Assembly: GCA_026702755.1 (NCBI GenBank)
Contig: JAPPBX010000031.1
Span: forward strand, 1 to 64,000
Source of the DNA: Candidatus Poribacteria bacterium
Lineage (GTDB): Bacteria; Poribacteria; WGA-4E; WGA-3G
DNA: 64,000 nucleotides
Reading direction: 5' to 3'
Part shown: one piece after another, positions 24,638 to 43,532 of the stretch
How positions within the stretch are numbered: position 1 is the stretch's first letter
Layout: every line of letters starts with the position of its first letter
The notes under the pieces: model-generated
What the model was told of the DNA's origin: nothing
What the model saw: the letters and a program-made list of their open reading frames with translations, nothing else
Database searches by the model: none
Made by a program: the position numbers and the translations under genes

Positions 24638-25465
24638 TTAATACGAAGATTTAATCTCACCCCAAGTGGTAGAGATTTTGCCTTTGGCATCAACATCAAA
24701 GCCACCGGCACTTGTAACGATAATGCTGTCAATCCGTCCCATCCCCCAACTTTCGTGCCAGACCCCGACGGTGCCTGCACCTTTGTAGGTGGCTTCATCG
24801 GATTCAAGGATAGGATCTCCGAGGTCCGCGGAGGATGCGAACAGGTCGTTGACTTCCTCAAGTAGCATATACCAGATTTTAACGTTGTTGCCTTGGACTT
24901 CAACGCGTCCGAAATAAGCGACAGCATTTGTTTGGTCAAGTCCACCACCCAAGCCGTGTGGCACACCTTCTAATTCCTTACCACCATTTTCACAGCCACA
25001 CTCGCTGAGACATTGTCCGGAAGGACAGCATCCATCTGCAAGATCGCCGAGGATGACTTGCGGTGTTTCATTATAACCGAAGACGACGAGATAACCTTTA
25101 TCGTCGCCTTTTCTGCGGAACTGCACACCGAAACTATCGTCATCCCCAAAGGAGAAAACGACCTGAACAATACCGTCAGTGAAGTCATCCACCCCAGGCA
25201 GTTCAGTGTTCCCGGAAATGCCACATCCTTCAGCGGTTTGTGTCATAGATTTTTTACCGCCGATTTTGCCGCCGTTGAAATCTCCCTCAGCCCAGATAGT
25301 GCCAGCATTTTCTGATTTGTAACTTTTAACGTTGTTCACATTAGCGTTCGGTTTTGCCTCCTTGGAACCAGGCTCAAAATCGGCATAAAACACAACTTGT
25401 CCGCTGGCGTGGAAGGAAACAAATAGACTCAAAGTGAGGATCAAAAGAAAAAAACGTGTTTTCAT
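24638..25465 (-). CDS. Secreted Cys-rich protein with C-terminal TWGEIK tail, paralogue 1
   Basis: The 275-residue protein starts at the ATG at 25465 with a signal peptide (MKTRFFLLILTLSLFVSFHA, cleaved near SGQ). The mature part looks like a jelly-roll or LamG-like beta sandwich: ADFEPGS, DDFTDGIVQVVFSFGDDDSF, RRKGDDKGYLVVFGYNETPQ. A Cys knot ADGCCPSGQCLSECGCENGG sits in the middle. The protein ends GKISTTWGEIKSSY; the same kind of tail ends the paralogue at 25720 and the protein at 37707. The function is unknown. The frame extends to 25516, but the signal peptide and a GGAG site fix the start. Confidence 0.75.
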   Translation of the reverse strand: MKTRFFLLILTLSLFVSFHASGQVVFYADFEPGSKEAKPNANVNNVKSYKSENAGTIWAEGDFNGGKIGGKKSMTQTAEGCGISGNTELPGVDDFTDGIVQVVFSFGDDDSFGVQFRRKGDDKGYLVVFGYNETPQVILGDLADGCCPSGQCLSECGCENGGKELEGVPHGLGGGLDQTNAVAYFGRVEVQGNNVKIWYMLLEEVNDLFASSADLGDPILESDEATYKGAGTVGVWHESWGMGRIDSIIVTSAGGFDVDAKGKISTTWGEIKSSY

Positions 25466-25593
25466 AGCAATATCTCCTCCATTTTCATGGTTGTGTTGCC
25501 GTTTATCCGCAAGCAACAGTACGGCAACGAAGCATTAGGGCACTGCTTAGATACGCATATCCCTAAAGAAGCCCCGTCGTAAAACTAAAGTGG

Positions 25594-25676
25594 TGTTGGG
25601 TGAGGCATTGACCTCACCCGACAAAGATGAATCATGCGATGCAGGGCGAACAGGGTTTGGGAACCCCGCCCTGCAA
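25594..25676 (-). terminator. Two hairpins downstream of the second Cys-rich gene
   Basis: GCAGGGC (25641-25647) pairs with GCCCTGC (25668-25674), and GGGTGAGG (25598-25605) pairs with CCTCACCC (25612-25619). A T-run is weak, so they may be terminators or transcript-stabilising hairpins. Confidence 0.5.
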
Positions 25677-25719
25677 TGCCAGTTGAATTTAGGGTATGAG
25701 CCTATATCAGGGAAGGAGA

Positions 25720-26544
25720 CTAATAGCTGCTTTTAACGTCCGCCCACGTCGTGGAAAGCTTAGCGTGTGGGTCGACTGCTACGGTGCCGCCTGGACCAGT
25801 AACGAGAAGGCTACCAACTCTTCCATTGCCCCAACTTTCATGCCAGAGCCCGACGGTGCCGGGTCCTAAATCATCCGCGCCATCGTATTCAGCAATCGGA
25901 TCGCCGAGTTCACTTGAATCCGCAAAGATATCCGGCACATCATCGAGTGGCATATACCAAACCTCAATGAGGCTTCCACTGACTTGAACGCGCGCAAAAT
26001 AGGCAACACTGTTGTCTTGGGTGAGGTCCGCACCTAAGCCGTGGTCAACACCGACGAGTTCATTCCCGCCGTTTTCGCAGCTACACTCGCTGAGACATTG
26101 TCCTGAGGGGCAGCATCCATCTGCAAGGCTCCCGATGATAACCTGAGGGGTTTCGTTATAGCCAAATACGACGAGATAGCCGCTATCATCGCCGACGCGA
26201 CGTAACATGAATCCAACACTGTCATCGTCGTTCCACGAAAAAACCGCCTGGATGATACCGTCGGAGAAGTCATCAACACCGGGGAGTGGTGTGTCCCCGG
26301 AGATGCCGCACCCTTCGGCACTTTGATGTAAAGCAGTTCCACCATCGGGGAAGTCAGTTGACTCCACCCAAACCGTTCCTGCGTTTTCCGGTACGTAATT
26401 TGCCGGGTCGTTGACGCTGGCATCCGGGACTGCGTCAGAGGAACCTGCTTCAAAATCAGCAAAGAAAATTATCTGTGCACTCGCGGTACTTATCAGCATG
26501 ACTGAAAAAAGCGCGATGAGCATCAGAAAGTGTGTTCTTTTCAT
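25720..26544 (-). CDS. Secreted Cys-rich protein with C-terminal TWADVK tail, paralogue 2
   Basis: The 274-residue protein is a close paralogue of the neighbouring gene. It has a signal peptide (MKRTHFLMLIALFSVMLIST, cleaved after ASA), the opening QIIFFADFEAGS, the Cys-rich loop ADGCCPSGQCLSECSCENGG and the tail AKLSTTWADVKSSY. The many Asp-Gly turns and alternating strands suggest a concanavalin-like beta sandwich that may bind calcium or sugar. Five of six Cys lie within 16 residues, suggesting disulfides or a metal site. I do not recognise a named family. The two genes are separate transcripts, each with its own hairpin. Confidence 0.75.
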   Translation of the reverse strand: MKRTHFLMLIALFSVMLISTASAQIIFFADFEAGSSDAVPDASVNDPANYVPENAGTVWVESTDFPDGGTALHQSAEGCGISGDTPLPGVDDFSDGIIQAVFSWNDDDSVGFMLRRVGDDSGYLVVFGYNETPQVIIGSLADGCCPSGQCLSECSCENGGNELVGVDHGLGADLTQDNSVAYFARVQVSGSLIEVWYMPLDDVPDIFADSSELGDPIAEYDGADDLGPGTVGLWHESWGNGRVGSLLVTGPGGTVAVDPHAKLSTTWADVKSSY

Positions 26545-27225: not shown

Positions 27226-30171
27226 CTACTGATTCGCACGCTGTAAGCGGAATACACCATTGTGCTTTGTGCCGATGTAGAATGTATCGCCATCAACAGC
27301 GAGAGAAGTCACCGTGTGCGGTGGGACTGGCGCAATGTGTTTCCATGTGCCCGTTTGGTTATCCACCTGATAAACACCGCTATCACAGATACCGTAAAGG
27401 GTTAAGCCGTCAGCGACAATCCGATCCATAAGGAGCATTTTCCCGTTAGTATCAGTGAGCGCGTGCCAGACCTCGCCGTTGAGCGAACGCATGACTCCTG
27501 CATCCGTTAAGATATAGACGGTTGAACCCGCAAATACGATCTCTTTGAAATACACAAATGGAAAGGGAAGGCTTTCGGTGATGTCGTTCCAAGTGTCTCC
27601 ATTGTCCAGAGACTGAAAGAGTTCACCCTCCCGTTTACCAGCATAGACAACGTCCCCCGAAACGCCAAGCGTGAGTCCTTTAGCAGACTCATCAGGTAAA
27701 GTGAGGAACCCGCTATCTTCTAAACCTGTATAGTGCCACGCTGTTTCGCCGCGCCGCCACCTGTAAAGTTTATGTCTATATTCCATGAAGACGGTATCGT
27801 CAGCCAATGTAAACGTTCCGTTCGTCCTCCATTCTTCAACGATACGGTCCCCGCCGGCTGACCACAACTCTTGTGCTTTATCAAGATCGGCATCATTCTC
27901 TCCCATTTTTATGACCTTTTTCTCTAATTCCGTGTGTAAGGTGTTCTCTTCAAAATCTGGGACACCTTCAACCGGTAGAAACAGATCGCCAGCGTCAGAG
28001 AGTTGAAAGAGTGTAACGTCCGTAAGTTCACTATTACTTGCATAGAGTACACCATTGGCTGTTGCGACTTTCGCTTTCGCTCCCTCCAATGAAGCATTTT
28101 CGTCAGGACTCAAGCCAATGGATTCCCACGACTCACCGCCATCTGTAGACTTGAGCATTCCGGTAGGTGTTAGCGCGTAGAGAACATTTTCGACCGTAAC
28201 CAGACTCTGAACATGGGAACTCACAAGTCCGCTCATAAAGGGGTGCCACGTGAAACCGCCATCCGTTGAACGTATTATCTCAGAAGGATGGTAATCCGTT
28301 TTGTAAAAATTGTTTTCATCCAATGCGACAACAGGAGACGCACCAGACGTACCAGACGTATGCCGGTCGCGTCCCGGATCCACCCACGTCTTACCATGGT
28401 CGTATGAGAGTAGAGCACCACCGGTACCCACTACCATAAGTGTCCCTCCAACTGGCACAACTTCAACAGCGGCTATTAACTTGACAGGATGTTGGTGAGA
28501 AGGGGGCGTAATATCGGTCCAAGAATCGCCGAGGTCGGTAGAAAAGAGAACTGAGGCATGAGGGGTCCACCCCGGCATCCCTCGTGGACCGATGATTGTT
28601 CCGATGTAAAGCTTATCTTCAGCAACTGCCAACGATTTGACACCTTGTTTCGATTGTGTCGGCACCGTCAATTTTTTCCAATTATCGGTAAACCGGAAAA
28701 GTCCGGCACTCGCCCCAACAAAGAGGATATTATTAACGGCGAGCGCGTCGTAAATGCGGAAATTAGGATCCCCTGCCTCCGGTACGACATCGGATCGCAA
28801 GACATGCCCTATGGATTCCCACTGCTTCCCAGCATCCTGAGAACGAAACACCTCCGTTCTGAGAATGAGGTACATCGTTATATCAACACTCTGTGCGCTG
28901 CGTTCTTGAGGTGCATCTGTGATAACCAAAGCGACGGCACGTCCTTTGGGACGGTCACTGAGGACCTCCCATGTTCTGCCATCATCAATTGAAGTTAAGA
29001 CTTCATCGGTCGTGAGGAGATAGAGAGTATCGCCGTGTTCCGCCATAACTCCCGCAAATTCCCGATTCGGACCGGCAGAACTAACAAACGTCCACGCGTC
29101 CGTTTTTTCGGCGAGTTTATAAAGCCCTGTTTTTGTAATAGTGTAGAGGGTTTGGTCGGACGCAAGAAAGAGTTCAGCTGCTGAAACGCCTCCGGGTCCC
29201 CTCGTTTGGACCCATTGCGGTTCTGCTATCGAAACGTCCACTTCATCCGTCTGCGCGGCTGCAATGAGAAACGATTCCATTTGGAATCCAGCCCTACCGT
29301 TTTTACCCGGTATATCGGCTCTTCCAAATTGGGTCAGTCGGTCAGATTTGTGTTCCAACGCTCGAACAACAGGTGCCTCAACCAATTCTATTGTCATTTC
29401 CGATGCGGCATCCAAGTTGTAGGGCTGCTGGAAACGCGACAACGCACGAGGTCCCATCCCGACCATCAAGATAACCAAAAAGGTCGAGGCGAATGAAAAT
29501 CCCCACGGCATCCAAGGTTTGCTTACGGAAGGAGATGCTGGTTTAATACGAGCGATTTCACGCATGATGTTCTCAGTTAAGGTCGGTGGTAATCGAAAGA
29601 TACCTGAGAAAGTATGGAGCAAATGCTCTTGCTCTTTCAATCGCTTGCGGGCACGGCGAAGTCGGCTTCTAATTGTGTTCGGCGATACACCCAAAAACGC
29701 GCTAACCTCCTCGCTTGTCATTTCTGCCAGATAAAACAGTGTGACAACAGTGCGCTCGCTTTCAGGCAGCTTTTGGAGCAGGCGTTTGACGAGTTCGCGC
29801 TGGTGGTCAATAGAGGCTTCTTCGTCACGCGCTGCTGTATATCGAGCATAACATAACTCCTCTAACTCGGTTGTGGGCATCGCATCCAGGGATGTCGTTG
29901 ATACCTGCTTCTTTCGGAGCCATGAGATACAGTGCCGCGTGGTGATTACATAGAGCCATCCCGGAAAATGATCTGGCGGTTTCAGCGTCGATAACTTTTT
30001 ATACACTTTCAGGAAAATATCCTGTGTGATTTCTTCGGCGGTATGGAAATCACCTATCTTCCGCCAGACAAGGGTATGAACCCATTTCTGGTATTTCTTG
30101 ACGAGCGTGGTAAATGCACCCTCGTCTCCATCTAAAGTCCGTTGAATTAATGCAACATCATTCTCTTTCAT
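27226..30171 (-). CDS. Membrane-bound ECF sigma factor fused to an Asp-box beta-propeller sensor, copy 1
   Basis: The 981-residue protein has three parts. Residues 1-190 are a complete ECF-type sigma factor: region 2 with QDIFLKVYKKL and FPGWLYVITTRHCISWL, region 4 with LPESERTVVTLFYLAEM and VSPNTIRSRLRRARKRL. A linker leads to one membrane helix at about 219-240 (WGFSFASTFLVILMVGMG). Residues 300-981 contain at least seven Asp-box motifs (DGGESW, DDGRTW, DLGDSW, DNGDTW and others), typical of BNR or photosynthesis-assembly-type propellers. Sigma and a presumed extracytoplasmic sensor are therefore one chain with no separate anti-sigma gene. The start has a GGAGGGAG site. A promoter-like element shared with the other fusion lies at 30216-30244. 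Confidence 0.88.
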   Translation of the reverse strand: MKENDVALIQRTLDGDEGAFTTLVKKYQKWVHTLVWRKIGDFHTAEEITQDIFLKVYKKLSTLKPPDHFPGWLYVITTRHCISWLRKKQVSTTSLDAMPTTELEELCYARYTAARDEEASIDHQRELVKRLLQKLPESERTVVTLFYLAEMTSEEVSAFLGVSPNTIRSRLRRARKRLKEQEHLLHTFSGIFRLPPTLTENIMREIARIKPASPSVSKPWMPWGFSFASTFLVILMVGMGPRALSRFQQPYNLDAASEMTIELVEAPVVRALEHKSDRLTQFGRADIPGKNGRAGFQMESFLIAAAQTDEVDVSIAEPQWVQTRGPGGVSAAELFLASDQTLYTITKTGLYKLAEKTDAWTFVSSAGPNREFAGVMAEHGDTLYLLTTDEVLTSIDDGRTWEVLSDRPKGRAVALVITDAPQERSAQSVDITMYLILRTEVFRSQDAGKQWESIGHVLRSDVVPEAGDPNFRIYDALAVNNILFVGASAGLFRFTDNWKKLTVPTQSKQGVKSLAVAEDKLYIGTIIGPRGMPGWTPHASVLFSTDLGDSWTDITPPSHQHPVKLIAAVEVVPVGGTLMVVGTGGALLSYDHGKTWVDPGRDRHTSGTSGASPVVALDENNFYKTDYHPSEIIRSTDGGFTWHPFMSGLVSSHVQSLVTVENVLYALTPTGMLKSTDGGESWESIGLSPDENASLEGAKAKVATANGVLYASNSELTDVTLFQLSDAGDLFLPVEGVPDFEENTLHTELEKKVIKMGENDADLDKAQELWSAGGDRIVEEWRTNGTFTLADDTVFMEYRHKLYRWRRGETAWHYTGLEDSGFLTLPDESAKGLTLGVSGDVVYAGKREGELFQSLDNGDTWNDITESLPFPFVYFKEIVFAGSTVYILTDAGVMRSLNGEVWHALTDTNGKMLLMDRIVADGLTLYGICDSGVYQVDNQTGTWKHIAPVPPHTVTSLAVDGDTFYIGTKHNGVFRLQRANQ

Positions 30172-30215
30172 CAGTCTCCCTCCGAAAAAATAAATAATAA
30201 GGCTTCATAATATAG

Positions 30216-30244
30216 TAACGCACTTTGGAGACCGAAATGGTGCA
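30216..30244 (-). promoter_or_regulatory. Candidate ECF-type promoter upstream of fusion copy 1
   Basis: On the minus strand TGCACCATTTCGGTCTCC precedes TGCGTTA. The 29-base block aligns without gaps to 35804-35832, upstream of the other fusion gene. A start just downstream would leave a leader of about 40 bases. Autoregulation by the encoded sigma factor is inference. Confidence 0.45.
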
Positions 30245-30288
30245 TAAAATGCAATTTTCGGAAGAATGCCTGTTTAAAGATGCAAAGG

Positions 30289-30313
30289 CGAGGTTGCAAA
30301 CCTCGCCCAGCAA
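30289..30313. repeat. CTCGCC hairpin repeat, family B (copy)
   Basis: GGCGAGGTTGCAAACCTCGCC is a perfect hairpin of the family also seen at 27115-27192, 39825-39855 and 40661-40686. Confidence 0.6.
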
Positions 30314-30356
30314 AAGGAAAATCAAGGACACATAAATGGAAAAGCGGAGAAAATAT

Positions 30357-32567
30357 TTATCGACTATCCCGCTGAAAACGGAGTATGCCGCTGTGTTTTG
30401 TACCGATGTAAAGCACTTCGTCAGCAATAGCGAGAGAAGTTGCCGCATAAGGTGCTTCCGAGGCGATCCGTCTCCATGTATCCATCTGATCATCAACCTG
30501 ATAAACGCCATTATCACGCACGCCGTAAAGGATTGCGTCCTCAGCTGCAATCCAATCCATAAGGAGCGGATCTCCGTCACTATCGGTGAGTGTCTGCCAG
30601 ACCTCGCTATTAAGCGAACGCATGACTCCCATATCCGTTGAAATATAGACCGTTGAACCCGCAAATACGATGTCCTTGAAGTATTCAAATGGAAAAGCGA
30701 GATTTTCGGTGATGTCGTTCCAAGTATCTCCGTTGTCCAAGGATTGGAAAAGTTCGCCCTCTCGCTTACCTGCATAGACAATGTTCCTCGAAACCGCAAG
30801 GGTGAATCCTTTTCCGTCAATAGGTGGGAATTCTCCTTGATCTTCCAAACCGGTGTAGTGCCACGCTGTTTCGCCGGGTCGCCATCTGAAAAGTTTCCGT
30901 CGGTGCTCCATAAACACAGTTTCCCCAGCGAGGACAAACCCTCCATTTCTTGTGTCCTCTTCAGCGATAAAGAGTAAACTCTCTCGCCACTGCCGCTCTG
31001 TTTCACGAACATTGACGTTGGTTTCTCTGGCTTCCCTAAGCCTTTTCTTCCATTCAACATACAGATTATCTTCCTTGAAATCCGGTATGCCTTGCACAGG
31101 TACCAGTTCATTACTTTCGACAGGAAGGTGCAAAAGTTGCGTTCGATGACTGGCAATGCTGCTTACATAGAGGGTTTCATCGGTTGTTTCAATCCTCGGA
31201 ATCAGGAGTTTACCTCCGCCACTCACGTTAATAGCCTCCCAAGATTCACCTCTGTTCGCCGATTTAGCAACCTTACCACCGCTAACTACATAGAGCATGT
31301 TTTTGTCTGCAATCAGATTCTGTACATCGGCACTCACGAGTCCCTTTACAAAGGGATGCCACGAGCGACCGCCATCTGTTGAGCGTGTTACCCCAGAGAG
31401 TTGAGATTTGAAAAAATTATTTTCATCCAAGGCTACAACAGGCAAGAAGCCACCCGTAAAGGCATGCGGGGCGCGTCCTGGATCCTCCCATGTCCTGCCA
31501 TGATCATAAGAAAGCAGAGCCCCACCGGGACCTATCACCATAAGTGTGTCTCCAACGGAAACGATCTTAACTGTGCCGATTAATTTAACTGGATGTTCAG
31601 CGGTGCTTGGGGTGATGTCGGTCCATGAATCTCCGAAGTCGGTTGAATAGAAGAGTGAACAATGAGGGGCATCCGGCTGATCTGAAATCGTTGCGACATA
31701 GAGTCTATCTTCGGTAGCTGCCAACGAATTGACACCTGCAAGGGTCGGTAGCGTTACTTTATTCCAATCGCCGGTAAACCGAAAAAGTCCGCGACTCGTT
31801 CCCACAAAGAGGATTCGGTTCGTTCCAGCATAGATGATGTCATCAATGGCAGCAGCGTCATGAATTCTTAATTCAATGTCTGCTTCCTCTGGGGCGATAT
31901 CGGCTCGCAAACTCTCGCCTATAGCGATCCACTGCTTACCTCCATCTTCAGAACGAAATACCTCTGTGCTGAGAACAAGAAACATTGTCATATCAACGCT
32001 CTGGGGGCTGCGTTCTCGAGGGGCATCCGTAACAACCAAGGCGACGGCACTTCCTTCGGGACGGTTACCGAGAGTATCCCATGTTTCACCGCGATCGGTT
32101 GATGCTAAGAGTTTATCCGTTGTGAGAAGATAAAGGGTATTGCCACGTTCTGCCATAATCTGGTCAAACTGCCGATTCGGACCGCCGGAATTAATAAGCG
32201 TCCATTCGTCTGCTTCTTCTGTAAATCGGTAGAGACCCGTCTTTGCAATAAGGTAAAGGGTTCGGTCAGATGCCAGAAAGAGTCCCGGTCTTGAAACGCC
32301 TCCCAATCCCTTCGTCTGGATCCACTGTGACTCTGTTACCAAAACGTCTGCCTTATCTGCGTGTAACGTTCGCGCACCGAAATTGAGCGTCAAACTCACC
32401 AGAAGTACCAATGCGAAAGTGAATACCCACGGCTTACTCACCGAAAGAAAAGCAGACTTGATGGGGAGGGTTTCCCGCATGACGTTCATAGTCAGATATG
32501 GGGAGATTTGGCACCTGAATCTTGCAAGCGAAGATTTGCTTTCAACGCTGCGTATTTTTTCAATCAT
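30357..32567 (-). CDS. Membrane Asp-box propeller protein lacking the sigma domain
   Basis: The 736-residue protein is a paralogue of the two flanking fusion proteins but starts where their linker begins. Its LTMNVMRETLPIK...LSVSKPW aligns with LTENIMREIARIK...PSVSKPW of the fusions. One membrane helix follows (FTFALVLLVSLTLNFGA), then at least seven Asp-box motifs (DRGETW, DGGKQW, DFGDSW, DHGRTW, DGGRSW, NRGESW, DNGDTW). The ATG at 32567 has AAGGAG six bases upstream, so the short form is a real gene and not a broken one. It lies 49 bases after the upstream fusion gene and is probably co-transcribed with it. It could act as a sensor subunit or decoy for the fused sigma proteins. Confidence 0.82.
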   Translation of the reverse strand: MIEKIRSVESKSSLARFRCQISPYLTMNVMRETLPIKSAFLSVSKPWVFTFALVLLVSLTLNFGARTLHADKADVLVTESQWIQTKGLGGVSRPGLFLASDRTLYLIAKTGLYRFTEEADEWTLINSGGPNRQFDQIMAERGNTLYLLTTDKLLASTDRGETWDTLGNRPEGSAVALVVTDAPRERSPQSVDMTMFLVLSTEVFRSEDGGKQWIAIGESLRADIAPEEADIELRIHDAAAIDDIIYAGTNRILFVGTSRGLFRFTGDWNKVTLPTLAGVNSLAATEDRLYVATISDQPDAPHCSLFYSTDFGDSWTDITPSTAEHPVKLIGTVKIVSVGDTLMVIGPGGALLSYDHGRTWEDPGRAPHAFTGGFLPVVALDENNFFKSQLSGVTRSTDGGRSWHPFVKGLVSADVQNLIADKNMLYVVSGGKVAKSANRGESWEAINVSGGGKLLIPRIETTDETLYVSSIASHRTQLLHLPVESNELVPVQGIPDFKEDNLYVEWKKRLREARETNVNVRETERQWRESLLFIAEEDTRNGGFVLAGETVFMEHRRKLFRWRPGETAWHYTGLEDQGEFPPIDGKGFTLAVSRNIVYAGKREGELFQSLDNGDTWNDITENLAFPFEYFKDIVFAGSTVYISTDMGVMRSLNSEVWQTLTDSDGDPLLMDWIAAEDAILYGVRDNGVYQVDDQMDTWRRIASEAPYAATSLAIADEVLYIGTKHSGILRFQRDSR

Positions 32568-32616
32568 GGATTTCTCCTTAATGGGAAAGCGGGTAAAAAT
32601 CCCACCCACCGATAAA

Positions 32617-35553
32617 CTACAAGTTGGACAAGGGCAAACTTAAAAGCCCACGGTGTTCAGTGCCAACATAGAGAACATTCCCCACAACAACGAGAGACGT
32701 TACTCGTCCAAGAACTTCTGAGGTAATCTGCTCCCAGATGCCTGTGCTGTTGTTCAGTCGGTAAACACCTGTTTGGGAAACACCGTAGAGGGTTGTGCCA
32801 TCAACTGCCAATTGGCGCATGGCAATCGGAGTATATTTTGAATCGGTGAGTGTATGCCAGTTTTCGCCATCGCTTGACACGGCAACACCGTCTTTTGTTG
32901 AAACGTATACCGTGTTATCCACAAAGCGTATTTCTCTGAAGTGTGGCAATTTTTTTAGGAGTTGGTCTTGCGATTCTGCTCTATTAAGCTGAAAGGGGAA
33001 GTCTGCGGTAATATCTCTCCAAGTGTCTCCGCCATCCAAGGATTGGAAGAGGCTGCCGTCACTTTTTCCGAGATACATGATCTTTCCTGAGACAGCGAAT
33101 TGGAACCCGTCAGTCGCATAGAAGTCCCCGAATACGGGTGCATCTTGGACCCCTGTGTCGTGCCATTCACGATCTCCACGTGCCCATCGGTAGAGTTTCC
33201 GTTCGTATTCAATGTAGAACGCGTTTTCGCTGACAGCGAACTCGCCTGTTGTTCGGACGATGGCCTCCTTGATGCCGAGTCGATAGTCAGATTCATCATT
33301 TGATAAACCTAAGCCGCGCTCGGCGAGTGTATCGGCGGTGTTTACCAGCCCCTCCAACCATTCGCCGTGGCTCGGATCCACATAAACAGGCATTCCCTCA
33401 ATATGGATCAGCGTATCAGTATTGGCGGGTAAATGGAGCAGGCAGTTTGTGCTGCCGCCCTGCTTTGTTCTGACGTAAAGCGAATCTCCCACGACTGTCA
33501 TATTCGACAATTTCAACTCACCGAGCGATTTATTTGGCGAGAGTGGTAAATTCGTGTCCATCTGCGTCCACTGATTTCCACCATCGATAGATTTAGCGAC
33601 ACCTTTATTCGTTACAGCGTAGAGCACGTTGTTAACCTGTGCAAGATCGAGAATTTGGGGTTCTGCTATACCCGTTGTGAACGAATGCCAACTACTGCCG
33701 CCATCAGTTGAACGTCCGAGACTACTCCCGAGTGCGACGAAAAAAGTATTCTCATCTAAAGCGATCGCTGGAGCAAAACCGAGCGCAAGCGCGTGCTTGT
33801 GGAAACCGAGGTATTCCCATGTGTCGCCAGCATCTCTTGAACCTAACACGCCAGCACCCAATACCAAAAGGGTTTCACCTGCCGCTACAAGCTTGACAGA
33901 TCCGATCGTCAATGGTGACATTCCTACTTTTAGATTCATGGGCGTTATATCAGTCCAAGATGCCCCAAAGTCGCTTGAAGCAAAGAGCGAACCAGATTTC
34001 TGATCTCCCTGCCTTGGGGCACTGATGTAGATTCTATCGTCAGCGACTGCTAACGCGTCAATAGATTGTGCCTGTGCAACAGATAATTTCTCCCATACAC
34101 CTGAATTAAGCCGATAGAGACCCTGCTTTGTCCCTAAAAAGGGGATGTTCCCAACGGTAACGGCAGTATGTATCTCTGGTGCGGTCAAGCCATCGTTAAA
34201 GGCGTTCCATGCTTTACCAGTATCTGTCGAACGAAACACACCGTCTGCAAGAACGAGGTACATTTCAATCTGGGCATCCTGCGACCAGCGTAACTTGCTG
34301 GGGATAAGTAGTGCGATGGCACGTCCGCGTGGCCGTGGACCGAGGAAATGCAATGTCACGCCGTGATCCGTTGACGCGAGCAGATCGGTCTCAGTAACAA
34401 TATAGAGCGTATCTTTCCCTTCTGCCATCGGCATCCTATAAGGTGTAACGGGAAGTGCGGCGTTAATGAGTGTCCATTCAGTGTTGTCAGCTGCTAACTG
34501 GTAGAGCCGAGTGCCTCCAATCGCATAGACCTCTTTTTGAGATGTGGCAAATAAGTTCCCGACACCGCCCCCCTCCGGTCCCCTTGTTGGCATCCATTGT
34601 GGTTCTGTCTTTCGTATCTTTGTTGTATCCGCTGCTACTGTCAACAGTCCAGCATCGGCTTTTGAAACGGTACCACTACCGTCTTTTCCCGGAGCATTAC
34701 CCTTTCCAAACTGATTTCTCACATCCAGTTCTCGTTTCAGTTCAAACACAACGGGTGCGTCAACCAATTCAACTGTCATCTCCGAGGTTGCATCCAAGTC
34801 GTAGGGTTGCTGGAAGCGAGATAACGTCTGGGGACCGAATCCCATCATCAGGATAACCAAAAGCGTTGAAGAAAAGGAGAGTGCCCACGGCACCCAAGGT
34901 TTACCCACAGAAGGCGATGTCGGCTTGATACGGGCAATTTCACGCATGACCTTCTCGGTTAGGGTTTGCGGCAATTGGAAAATGCTTGGGGCATCGTGGA
35001 GCAGATGTTCTTGCTTCTCCAACCGCTTGCGGGCGCGGTGGAGACGACTCTTAATAGTGTTTGGGGATACCCCCAAGAATTCGCTAATGTTTTCGCAAGA
35101 CATTTCTGCCAGATAAAACAGTGTTACAACAGTGCGCTCGCTCTCTGGGAGTTTTTGGAGCAGGCGTTTGACGATGCCGCGCTGGTGTTCAACAGATGCT
35201 TCTTCGTTATGTGCTGCCTCATATCGTGCATAACATAACTCCTCTAACTCGGTTGTAGGCATCGCATCCAGGGAGGTCGTTGATACCCTCTTCTTTCGGA
35301 GCCATGTGATACAGTGCCGCGTCGCAATTACATAGAGCCACCCTGGAAAACGATCCGGTGGTTTCAACGTCGATAACTTTTTGTACACCTTCAAAAAAAT
35401 ATCCTGTGTGATTTCCTCGGCGATATGGAAATCCCCTATTTTTCGCCAGACCAAAGTGTGAATCTGCTTTTGGTATTTGTTCACGAGTGCTGTAAATGCG
35501 CGTTGGTCACCCTCTAAAGTCCGTCGAATCAGGTCAACATCGCTTCTCTCCAT
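32617..35553 (-). CDS. Membrane-bound ECF sigma factor fused to an Asp-box beta-propeller sensor, copy 2
   Basis: The protein has 978 residues from the ATG at 35553, chosen for its GGGAGGAGA site; the frame is open to 35646 without a site. The layout matches copy 1: sigma region 2 (QDIFLKVYKKL, FPGWLYVIATRHCITWL), region 4 (LPESERTVVTLFYLAEM, VSPNTIKSRLHRARKRL), one membrane helix near 220-242 (ALSFSSTLLVILMMGFG) and a long Asp-box region (DTGKAW, DFGASW, DAGDTW, DGGSSW, DGGNQW, DGGDTW). The sigma and linker parts are far more alike between copies than the propellers, suggesting constant signalling output with diverging inputs. A MITE-like element separates it from its promoter-like element. 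Confidence 0.88.
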   Translation of the reverse strand: MERSDVDLIRRTLEGDQRAFTALVNKYQKQIHTLVWRKIGDFHIAEEITQDIFLKVYKKLSTLKPPDRFPGWLYVIATRHCITWLRKKRVSTTSLDAMPTTELEELCYARYEAAHNEEASVEHQRGIVKRLLQKLPESERTVVTLFYLAEMSCENISEFLGVSPNTIKSRLHRARKRLEKQEHLLHDAPSIFQLPQTLTEKVMREIARIKPTSPSVGKPWVPWALSFSSTLLVILMMGFGPQTLSRFQQPYDLDATSEMTVELVDAPVVFELKRELDVRNQFGKGNAPGKDGSGTVSKADAGLLTVAADTTKIRKTEPQWMPTRGPEGGGVGNLFATSQKEVYAIGGTRLYQLAADNTEWTLINAALPVTPYRMPMAEGKDTLYIVTETDLLASTDHGVTLHFLGPRPRGRAIALLIPSKLRWSQDAQIEMYLVLADGVFRSTDTGKAWNAFNDGLTAPEIHTAVTVGNIPFLGTKQGLYRLNSGVWEKLSVAQAQSIDALAVADDRIYISAPRQGDQKSGSLFASSDFGASWTDITPMNLKVGMSPLTIGSVKLVAAGETLLVLGAGVLGSRDAGDTWEYLGFHKHALALGFAPAIALDENTFFVALGSSLGRSTDGGSSWHSFTTGIAEPQILDLAQVNNVLYAVTNKGVAKSIDGGNQWTQMDTNLPLSPNKSLGELKLSNMTVVGDSLYVRTKQGGSTNCLLHLPANTDTLIHIEGMPVYVDPSHGEWLEGLVNTADTLAERGLGLSNDESDYRLGIKEAIVRTTGEFAVSENAFYIEYERKLYRWARGDREWHDTGVQDAPVFGDFYATDGFQFAVSGKIMYLGKSDGSLFQSLDGGDTWRDITADFPFQLNRAESQDQLLKKLPHFREIRFVDNTVYVSTKDGVAVSSDGENWHTLTDSKYTPIAMRQLAVDGTTLYGVSQTGVYRLNNSTGIWEQITSEVLGRVTSLVVVGNVLYVGTEHRGLLSLPLSNL

Positions 35554-35750: not shown

Positions 35751-35803
35751 ATATACTTTTAGACTTTACCATAAAAACAAAAAATAGTGCTTTCATAGGT
35801 TAA

Positions 35804-35832
35804 TAACGCGTCTATGAGACTGAAAGGTTGCA
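35804..35832 (-). promoter_or_regulatory. Candidate ECF-type promoter upstream of fusion copy 2
   Basis: On the minus strand TGCAACCTTTCAGTCTCATA precedes GACGCGTTA. TGCAACCTTT resembles -35 elements of several ECF groups, and the block aligns with 30216-30244. It lies about 250 bases from the start codon, partly because of the MITE-like insertion. Confidence 0.45.
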
Positions 35833-41796: not shown

Positions 41797-43532
41797 GGCA
41801 GTTTCTCCTTTGTTTCTGCACTTAGCAGTCGTTTACGGAGTGTTTGCTTATCAGATTTTCCGACACCCGTTTTTGGGATTTCATCAACAAAGACAAAGTG
41901 GTCAGGGATCCAGAACTTCGGGAACTCAAGGGCGAGATGCTGCTTGAGGGTGTTTGAGATGTCCGCATCGGTGCGGTTAGAAACCGCACCTACCGGGGTA
42001 AGGGCAATGTCCGCATCGGTGCAGTTAGAAACCGCACCTACCGGGGTAAGGGCAATGTCCGCATCGGTGCGGTTAGAAACCGCACTTACCGGGGTAAGGG
42101 CGACGACAGCGAGTGGACGTTCACCCCACTTTTCGTTAGGCATCCCGATAACCGCTGCGTCAAGGACATAAGGATGTTTCAGGAGGGCAGTCTCCAAGGC
42201 AACACTTGAAATAGATTCTCCACCGCTTCGGATGAGTGCCTTCGCGCGGTCCACAATCTGCATGTAGCCTTGCGCGTCAATCGTCGCAATATCACCAGTC
42301 CTTAACCATCCATCGGGGGTGAAGTGTTCGTCTGTCGGTTTACTCCCATAGTAGGTGCTTGCTGTCCACGGACTCCGTACTTGTAGTTCTCCAGCTGTTT
42401 TACCATCCCAAGGGAGTTCGGTGAGTTGGTTAGATGTTTCAGCTACAATGCGAAGTTCAACGCCTGGGACCGGTCTACCCTGTTTCGCTTTAACCCGCCA
42501 TTTTTCAGCATCGGACAAATTTTGATGCCGCCTACGCAGTTTTGAGAAGGTACCAGTCGGGGACATCTCTGTCATTCCCCACGCGTGACAAATCTCAATC
42601 CCAAGTTCCTTTTCGTAAGCCTCAATGAGTGTCGGCGGCATCGCTTCGCCGCCAACTATCAATCGCCTCAATGAATATATGTCTCGCCGCCTTTTGCGGA
42701 ATTCGGGATAAGCCGCCGCCCATACCGTTGGCACGCCTGCAGCGACGGTGACACCTGTTTTTGCAATGAGGTCAGCGAGGCAAAGAGATGTAGGACCGGG
42801 TAGTACGAGATCCGCCCCGGCAAACATGCTGGCGTAAGGCAGTCCCCACGCCATCGCATGGAACATTGGGACAAGCGGCAGAACAACGTCTGCCTCGGTC
42901 AGTCCAAAGACATCGGCTTGATTTACAGCGAGCGTGTGAAGGAACATGGAGCGGTGCGTGTAGAGAACACCCCGCGGCTCGCCTTGCGTTCCGCTGGTAT
43001 AGCAGAGACCCATCGCCCAGTTTTCGTCTGGAATATCCCATGTATACGCTGGGTCGGCTTCAGAGAGGAACTGCTCATAAAAGACAGCGGAAGGTGTAGG
43101 CATCTGATTAAAATAGACAACCTGTTCACATTTAATCTCATTCCGTAGTTCCTCAAACTGCCCAGCAAACGCTCCATCTACAAAAATGACTTTGTCTTCT
43201 GCTTCATGCGTAATGTGAGCCAATTGTGCAGCGGAGAGGCGAACATTGAGCGGATGCAGCACGGCACCAAGGCACGGAATCGCATAGTAAAGTTCCAGAT
43301 GTTGATACGTATTGGATGCATAGGTTGCTACCCTATCGCCCGGCTGCACGATGCCCAATTGCGTGATAGCGTTTGCTAATTGCTTCACACGCTCGTATAA
43401 TGCAGTATAACTATAACGATGGAACATCTGATGGGACAGGCGCGTGGTGATCCGTTTATCGCCGTGTATACGATGTGCATGCTCCAAAATCTGCGCAAGC
43501 GTCAATGGATAGTTCATCATCAAGCCGTGCAT
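41793..43532 (-). CDS. Fatty-acyl-CoA synthetase (AMP-forming) with a coding repeat insert
   Basis: The 579-residue protein belongs to the adenylate-forming ligases that activate fatty acids as acyl-CoA. The nucleotide loop is YTSGTQGEPRGVLYTHRS near residue 180. HAWGMTEMSPTGTF, DGWLRTGDIATID and the C-terminal catalytic Lys in EIPKTGVGKSDKQTL are all present, so it should be active. An insert of about 50 residues (near 471-524) in the C-terminal domain consists of three copies of a 17-residue unit containing ALTPVGAVSNRTDADI, encoded by an intergenic-type repeat. The start at 43532 has a second Met five codons in. It is coupled to the downstream dehydrogenase. Confidence 0.9.
   Translation of the reverse strand: MHGLMMNYPLTLAQILEHAHRIHGDKRITTRLSHQMFHRYSYTALYERVKQLANAITQLGIVQPGDRVATYASNTYQHLELYYAIPCLGAVLHPLNVRLSAAQLAHITHEAEDKVIFVDGAFAGQFEELRNEIKCEQVVYFNQMPTPSAVFYEQFLSEADPAYTWDIPDENWAMGLCYTSGTQGEPRGVLYTHRSMFLHTLAVNQADVFGLTEADVVLPLVPMFHAMAWGLPYASMFAGADLVLPGPTSLCLADLIAKTGVTVAAGVPTVWAAAYPEFRKRRRDIYSLRRLIVGGEAMPPTLIEAYEKELGIEICHAWGMTEMSPTGTFSKLRRRHQNLSDAEKWRVKAKQGRPVPGVELRIVAETSNQLTELPWDGKTAGELQVRSPWTASTYYGSKPTDEHFTPDGWLRTGDIATIDAQGYMQIVDRAKALIRSGGESISSVALETALLKHPYVLDAAVIGMPNEKWGERPLAVVALTPVSAVSNRTDADIALTPVGAVSNCTDADIALTPVGAVSNRTDADISNTLKQHLALEFPKFWIPDHFVFVDEIPKTGVGKSDKQTLRKRLLSAETKEKLP
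41960..42112. repeat. Three tandem 51-base repeats inside the acyl-CoA synthetase gene
   Basis: The unit TCCGCATCGGTGCGGTTAGA continues with AACCGCACCTACCGGGGTAA and GGGCAATG; three copies differ at only a few bases. The core GGTGCGGTTAGAAACCGCAC is the same hairpin as intergenic copies near 9190, 14096 and 20068. Unit length is a multiple of three, so the frame is kept. Confidence 0.9.

Follow-up and report, generated by a model that had tools for sequence, protein, structure and literature searches.

The window analysed here, a stretch of 64,000 nucleotides from Candidatus Poribacteria bacterium, carries three related genes on the minus strand, which are transcribed in the order C, B and A. 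Their features are as follows:

27226..30171, minus strand: gene A, 981 aa; ECF sigma, linker, membrane helix, stalk and Asp-box sensor
29905..30105, minus strand: sigma region 2 of A (Pfam PF04542)
29638..29796, minus strand: sigma region 4 of A (Pfam PF08281)
29446..29508, minus strand: membrane helix of A (hydropathy and alignment)
30357..32567, minus strand: gene B, 736 aa; paralogue without a sigma that starts within the linker and has 7 Asp-boxes
32343..32567, minus strand: N-terminus of B; remnant of the linker helix and a hydrophobic segment with a signal-peptidase-like end (LHA/DKAD)
32617..35553, minus strand: gene C, 978 aa; ECF sigma, linker, membrane helix, stalk and double-propeller sensor
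35287..35487, minus strand: sigma region 2 of C (Pfam PF04542)
35020..35178, minus strand: sigma region 4 of C (Pfam PF08281)
34828..34890, minus strand: membrane helix of C, PWALSFSSTLLVILMMGFGPQ (hydropathy; P222, W223 and G238 conserved)
34684..34827, minus strand: conserved extracytoplasmic stalk of C, SRFQQPYDLDATSEMTVELVDAPVV... (alignments)
32620..34602, minus strand: sensor of C, an Asp-box double beta-propeller with a GH74-like fold (AlphaFold model and Foldseek)

Two single-chain sigma-sensor proteins and a sigma-less paralogue

In the Pfam scans, Sigma70_r2 matched A at residues 23-89 (4e-13) and r4_2 at residues 126-178 (1.9e-15); the values for C were 9.6e-13 and 3.7e-16, respectively. 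The two regions lie within the first 180 residues of both proteins, and regions 1.1 and 3 are absent, which is the layout of the ECF (group IV) sigma factors. Against TIGR02937, A and C scored 98.8 and 97.2 bits (cut-off 42.9), and this type of sigma matched the SigW structure 5wuq with an E value of 3.7e-25. The NCBIfam models of named ECF subfamilies (SigW, RpoE and others) all stayed below their equivalog cut-offs, the best score being about half of that needed (113 of 209 bits for the SigW model).

A single convincing hydrophobic helix was found by hydropathy in each of A and C, at about residue 221, and a second peak of the sigma proteins, at about residue 563, falls within a predicted propeller strand. 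The Asp-box S-x-D-x-G-x-x-W occurs seven times in A, seven times in B and six times in C, against an expectation of 0.02 in shuffled sequences, which rules out a chance origin of the boxes. The first-pass annotation had described two proteins that each combine complete sigma regions 2 and 4 with a single membrane helix and an Asp-box region, and Pfam, hydropathy and box counts agree on this; the domain matches that it predicted were also returned (Sigma70 r2 and r4 for A and C, BNR for B). As it had claimed, sensor and sigma belong to one molecule: each ORF runs without interruption from a conserved start, which rules out a frameshift or split gene, and the domains lie in a single polypeptide. 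The start of C was placed at 35553 by homology, in agreement with the first-pass annotation, and the 31-aa upstream extension of the listed ORF is spurious. The sigma halves of A and C are more alike than the propellers, with 82% identity in the sigma, 67% in the linker, membrane helix and stalk, and 40% in the sensor.

Rates of substitution were calculated by comparison with the cluster of orthologues in OX638352 (L139), where the gene order is C, B, one additional sigma fusion and A. The dN/dS of A was 0.21 over the whole gene, 0.13 in the sigma and 0.25 in the sensor, and that of C was 0.18, 0.115 and 0.19, respectively. For B, it was 0.26 over the whole gene and 0.24 in the sensor, compared with 0.61 in the N-terminal linker and helix. 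These values indicate that A, B and C are all maintained by selection.

Gene B matched neither sigma region in the Pfam scan; Sortilin-Vps10, DUF6242 and BNR were matched instead. Its true start is the ATG at 32567, which is preceded by a conserved AAGGAG. The absence of a sigma domain and the retention of the linker start, both reported for this third protein, were borne out, but the hydrophobic helix is followed by a signal-peptidase-like site and the stalk is missing, so that the helix need not be the membrane anchor for which it had been taken. An orthologue with 87% identity in a relative (L061) is also sigma-less, and the nearest homologues of B in L062-L064 retain the sigma; the sigma was therefore lost in the lineage of B. 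A second sigma-less gene on the chassis described below, of the WD40 class (L014:1064-3325), lies directly behind a sigma-WD40 gene, in the same arrangement as C and B. In both sigma-less genes the LT.N...R start of the linker is kept, the stalk is lost and the hydrophobic stretch ends in a signal-peptidase-like site, which is LAEA/QTDQ in the second gene. Most of the other sigma-less matches were contig-edge truncations or interrupted genes and could not be counted as independent cases; two are real in this genome.

The loss of sigma and stalk, together with the faster evolution of the N-terminal 75 residues, might suggest that B is a pseudogene or an assembly artefact and not a functional protein. 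This is very improbable, as an intact orthologue of 736 aa in another genome has the same start and ribosome site, the sensor of B is under constraint and a second sigma-less case exists beside the sigma-WD40 gene. B has probably become a secreted or signal-anchored derivative of the sensor. In the simplest reading, it would be a ligand binder made beside C, with its sensor domain competing for the ligand or presenting it. The first-pass annotation had proposed that the sigma-less protein could compete or signal, and either role may apply.

The fused-sigma family and its sensors

The genome to which the window belongs (5.84 Mb) contains 81 matches to Sigma70 region 2. A single fused-sigma family accounts for 49 members among the proteins read in this genome, with scores of 230-275 bits to the family model, as compared with 150-195 bits for other ECF sigmas. 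The trio was first described as a cluster, and it is real; it is not isolated, being part of this genome-wide family. In a search of named genomes, all of the best relatives (78/78) were from Candidatus Poribacteria.

Approximately 37 of the 49 members share a common chassis, consisting of the sigma, a helix (LTENIMRE), a proline-rich KP linker, PWA, the membrane helix and a stalk with the consensus YLxRFQxPYSFxAxSExTVEIIDAPIVLD, and the further copies for which the first-pass annotation had proposed a search were found in number. The sensors on this chassis vary, and include Asp-box, WD40, Kelch, Reg_prop, PD40 and GHL15-like domains and several without a Pfam match. About 10 family members lack a membrane helix; the domains that they carry are redoxin, peptidase M61-N, DnaN or of unknown kind. 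Tandem copies are frequent; for example, seven fused-sigma genes lie within about 25 kb of contig C17 (L001 and L002; G000:C17:141900-169600), with Asp-box, WD40 and other sensors intermixed. Of 85 genomes from the phylum, 68 contained the chassis. Within the same taxonomic family the copy number rose to as many as 59 in one genome, and elsewhere in the order there were 0-3 copies, mostly weak; none was found in the other classes of the phylum that were sampled.

The Asp-box region of C was modelled by AlphaFold as beta-propellers with good confidence, as had been expected, and the pLDDT of the sensor propellers was approximately 85-92. The best fold match of the C sensor in Foldseek was the GH74 xyloglucanase 2cn2 (E 3e-24, TM 0.62 of target), and periplasmic sensors of the HTCS type, such as BT4663, were lower in the list. 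The GH74 xyloglucanases have a double Asp-box propeller like that of C. This likeness is one of fold alone, with no significant sequence match between the C sensor and GH74 and an identity of about 15%, too distant for residues such as the two catalytic aspartates in the GH74 cleft to be mapped. On the strength of these fold matches, a glycan would be a reasonable guess, and only a guess, for the ligand of the C sensor. The linker and stalk were of low confidence in both AlphaFold models and no inhibitory contact was visible, and the idea of the linker helix as a docked anti-sigma is thus unsupported.

Some fusions in this genome involve domains of the replication and division machinery. In one ORF of 1347 aa (L035:4454-8497, G000:C51), an ECF sigma is joined with an entire FtsZ and with the front part of DNA polymerase III alpha (DnaE), and a sigma-FtsZ of 406 aa is present at L027:11963-13183 (G000:C24). 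The sigma-FtsZ junction was matched in 54 of 58 genomes of the taxonomic family, many of the ORFs being 1350-1440 aa, and a normal FtsZ is also present (C69). At L027:5567-7288 (G000:C24), a family sigma and an entire DNA polymerase III beta clamp (DnaN) form one fusion, with the family promoter; this junction is conserved in 31 of the 58 genomes, and the normal DnaN is at C90.

The family promoter and its co-variation with the sigma

ECF promoters commonly have AAC at -35 and CGTC at -10, and are commonly autoregulated. A promoter of this form was predicted upstream of both sigma genes of the window:

35801..35832, minus strand: predicted ECF promoter of C, TGCAACCTTTCAGTCTCATAGACGCGTTATTA (genome pattern scan, 2 mismatches; PWM 33.7 bits)
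30213..30244, minus strand: predicted ECF promoter of A, TGCACCATTTCGGTCTCCAAAGTGCGTTACTA (pattern scan and PWM)

The site of A reads TGCACC-N17-GCGTTACTA and lies 41 bp before the start, and that of C reads TGCAAC-N17-GCGTTATTA, 247 bp before the start; the latter is conserved in the L061 orthologue. The consensus upstream of most family members is AATTATGCAACcTTT-(5-6)-ctAAntcGCGTCAcTAaa, with the core TGCAAC-N17-GCGTCA. PWM scores were above the 99% shuffle level for 154 of 173 family genes (39/49 in this genome and 115/124 in others), including A and C. A PWM trained exclusively on other genomes gave more than 10 bits in 34 of the 49 family upstream regions of this genome, compared with 5 of 300 control ORFs.

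A scan of the whole genome with the pattern returned 44 sites, as against 13 with the reversed pattern. Sites were located upstream of family sigma genes in 20 of the 39 cases with readable surroundings, and several of the helix-less family members also carry the promoter. Others among the sites precede genes for a MoxR ATPase, two ABC ATPases, two STAS proteins, a redoxin, an adenosine deaminase, a lectin-domain protein and a laminin-G-like protein. These non-sigma targets are predictions, some of which will be due to chance. AhpC/TSA redoxin domains also occur on three helix-less fused sigmas, besides the stand-alone redoxin and STAS proteins with the family promoter (L010:3764-5869, L010:7764-9947, L031:5003-6949 and L148:5908-7293).

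The mutual information shared by residues of the sigma and bases of the promoter was calculated for 152 genes (132 with stalk columns as a control). It was highest for residues 165-172 of the recognition helix with the -35 core, and for residues 83 and 86 of region 2.4 with the -10 block; the paired positions were 169/-34, 168/-31 and -30, 172/-32 and 153/-30, and residues 83 and 86 with the -10 block. At z >5, nine pairs linked region 4.2 to the -35 core, and no pair linked it to the -10 core. Region 2.4 showed the reverse, with three pairs at the -10 core but zero at the -35 core. Among the 112 control columns behind the sigma, two pairs involved the -10 core and no pair the -35 core. In a test on 66 disjoint sister pairs, p was 9e-7 for 169/-34, 5e-7 for 168/-30 and 1.3e-5 for 172/-32, and for the -10 block 2.6e-6 (residue 83) and 1e-4 (residue 86). 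A few non-contact pairs reached p ~3e-5 in this test, and the co-variation is partly phylogenetic.

By alignment to 1or7, residues 153, 168, 169 and 172 correspond to Y156, R171, S172 and F175 of sigma-E. A paper on the SigW -35 structure places these residues of sigma-E as follows: S172 on G-34, R171 on the base opposite -31, Y156 near -30 and F175 near -33 (PMC6713349). The statistical pairs of region 4 thus match the crystal contacts, residue 172 being offset by one base. The window pair follows the family-wide pattern, with R172 and TGCACC in A, and H172 and TGCAAC in C. When minority bases in this genome were predicted from the other genomes, the prediction worked at -34 (7/9) and half-worked at -32 (8/14) and at one position of the -10 block (10/19); prediction of the non-majority -31 bases from residue 168 failed in this genome (0/12).

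As the promoter bases co-vary with regions 4.2 and 2.4, and the region 4 pairs match the contacts of sigma-E, it is very probable that the fused sigma works and that it recognises the promoter of its own gene. The best explanation of the pattern would be that the paralogues diverged together with their own promoters, under positive autoregulation. The strong similarity of the promoters across the family, and their presence at some non-sigma genes, could also reflect a network in which the paralogues activate each other, or one master sigma serves as a hub from many inputs to one regulon. This is rather improbable, since the promoter bases follow the residues of the sigma directly downstream, a pattern that a single master sigma would not yield. 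The two independent sigma-less derivatives might likewise be taken to mean that the sigma is a decaying passenger and the propellers do the work, as in B. The chance of this is slight indeed, and the idea is already contradicted by the comparative data, in which no other part is as well conserved as the sigma (dN/dS 0.12) and the sigma co-varies with the promoter bases.

Possible activation and relation to known systems

To our knowledge, only a few single-chain membrane sigmas are known, and only one has been characterised for proteolytic activation. The one-piece design has precedents in IutY (ECF243), ECF48, ECF52 (SCO4117) and ECF53 (PMC8999054). In P. putida IutY, the proteases Prc and RseP release a sigma of 23 kDa (PMC5411451). 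The proteins described here resemble IutY in having an N-terminal ECF sigma, one membrane helix and a C-terminal extracytoplasmic domain in one chain, and activation by release of the sigma would be that of IutY. Particular to IutY are its size of 374 aa, its role in iron signalling, its periplasmic FecR-like anti-sigma domain and its outer-membrane receptor partner; the Pfam scans of A, B and C gave no accepted match to FecR or to any other anti-sigma domain. The Poribacterial family differs from IutY in its large beta-propeller, in a linker and stalk that are specific to the family, and in having tens of paralogues in a genome.

By analogy with IutY, intramembrane proteolysis would be the likeliest activation mechanism. 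In A and C, the cytoplasmic sigma, tethered by one membrane helix to the extracytoplasmic propeller, would be kept inactive at the membrane when there is no signal. Sensing of a ligand or of damage by the propeller would expose the stalk to a first protease, after which RseP would cut within the membrane and free the sigma (~23 kDa). The freed sigma would take RNA polymerase to TGCAAC-N17-GCGTCA, at its own gene first and then at a modest regulon. Release by proteolysis with autoregulation is, on balance, the reading that we favour. A site-2 protease gene had been proposed as something to search for, and one full RseP-type protease with HELGH was found in the genome, with three S41 (Prc-type) proteases.

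The first-pass annotation had left activation between proteolysis and action at the membrane, and both are still live options. ToxR and CadC are membrane one-component regulators, and the sigma may similarly work while tethered, the ligand changing its conformation or oligomer state without cleavage. The long and flexible linker, and the fusion of the same sigma family to proteins without a membrane helix, are compatible with this. It is nevertheless considered unlikely, if worth keeping in mind, as IutY, the sole characterised single-chain sigma of such a layout, requires Prc and RseP, and strong conservation is seen in the membrane helix and the stalk while the sensors vary. Judging from the approximately 10 helix-less members with the same sigma, several of which have the promoter, membrane proteolysis cannot be the sole control mode of the family.

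ECF48, ECF52 and ECF53, which are from Actinobacteria, also have a C-terminal membrane extension on the sigma, and ECF52 carries a carbohydrate-binding domain; their own feature is a zinc-finger anti-sigma-like domain between the sigma and the membrane helix. No zinc finger was matched by Pfam in A or C, and the aligned linker has no conserved Cys/His pattern. ECF57 resembles the present family in carrying an ECF sigma on propeller-type (WD40-like) repeats. By description, it has two conserved cysteines linking the sigma domains and is activated by protein interaction; no such cysteine pair was present among the conserved columns of the family alignment. BT4663 and related HTCS also combine a large periplasmic propeller pair as sensor with a one-chain transducer, but their output is a kinase and HTH domain, whereas that of the Poribacterial proteins is a sigma factor.

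No published description of the Poribacterial fused-sigma family was found in the literature searched, which excludes subscription journals, and within that scope the repertoire, the common chassis and the self-promoter code appear to be undescribed. This lineage has expanded the one-piece design to tens of paralogues with a common chassis and swapped sensors, and these are numerous enough for a sigma-promoter specificity code to be read off the sequences, one that agrees with the contacts seen in crystals. How insulated regulatory circuits evolve, and what this uncultured symbiont of sponges senses, are thereby made testable questions, and orthogonal sigma-promoter pairs for use in the laboratory could be drawn from the family. 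More tentatively, since members of the family and separate ECF sigmas are fused to extra copies of DnaN, FtsZ and DnaE, the repertoire may include guards of the core machinery. The whole might then consist of tens of one-piece receptor-sigmas on one chassis, with their own co-evolved promoters and interchangeable sensors, possibly guarding essential components as well as the outside.

Two further observations concern other parts of the window. The minus strand at 24638-26544, adjoining gene A, encodes a tandem pair of paralogous secreted proteins, each of about 280 aa, that share the conserved cysteine motif CCPSGQCLSEC. At about 41910-42065, also on the minus strand, an in-frame tandem repeat of approximately 17 residues (ALTPVGAVSNRTDADI) lies near the C-terminus of an acyl-CoA ligase-like ORF.
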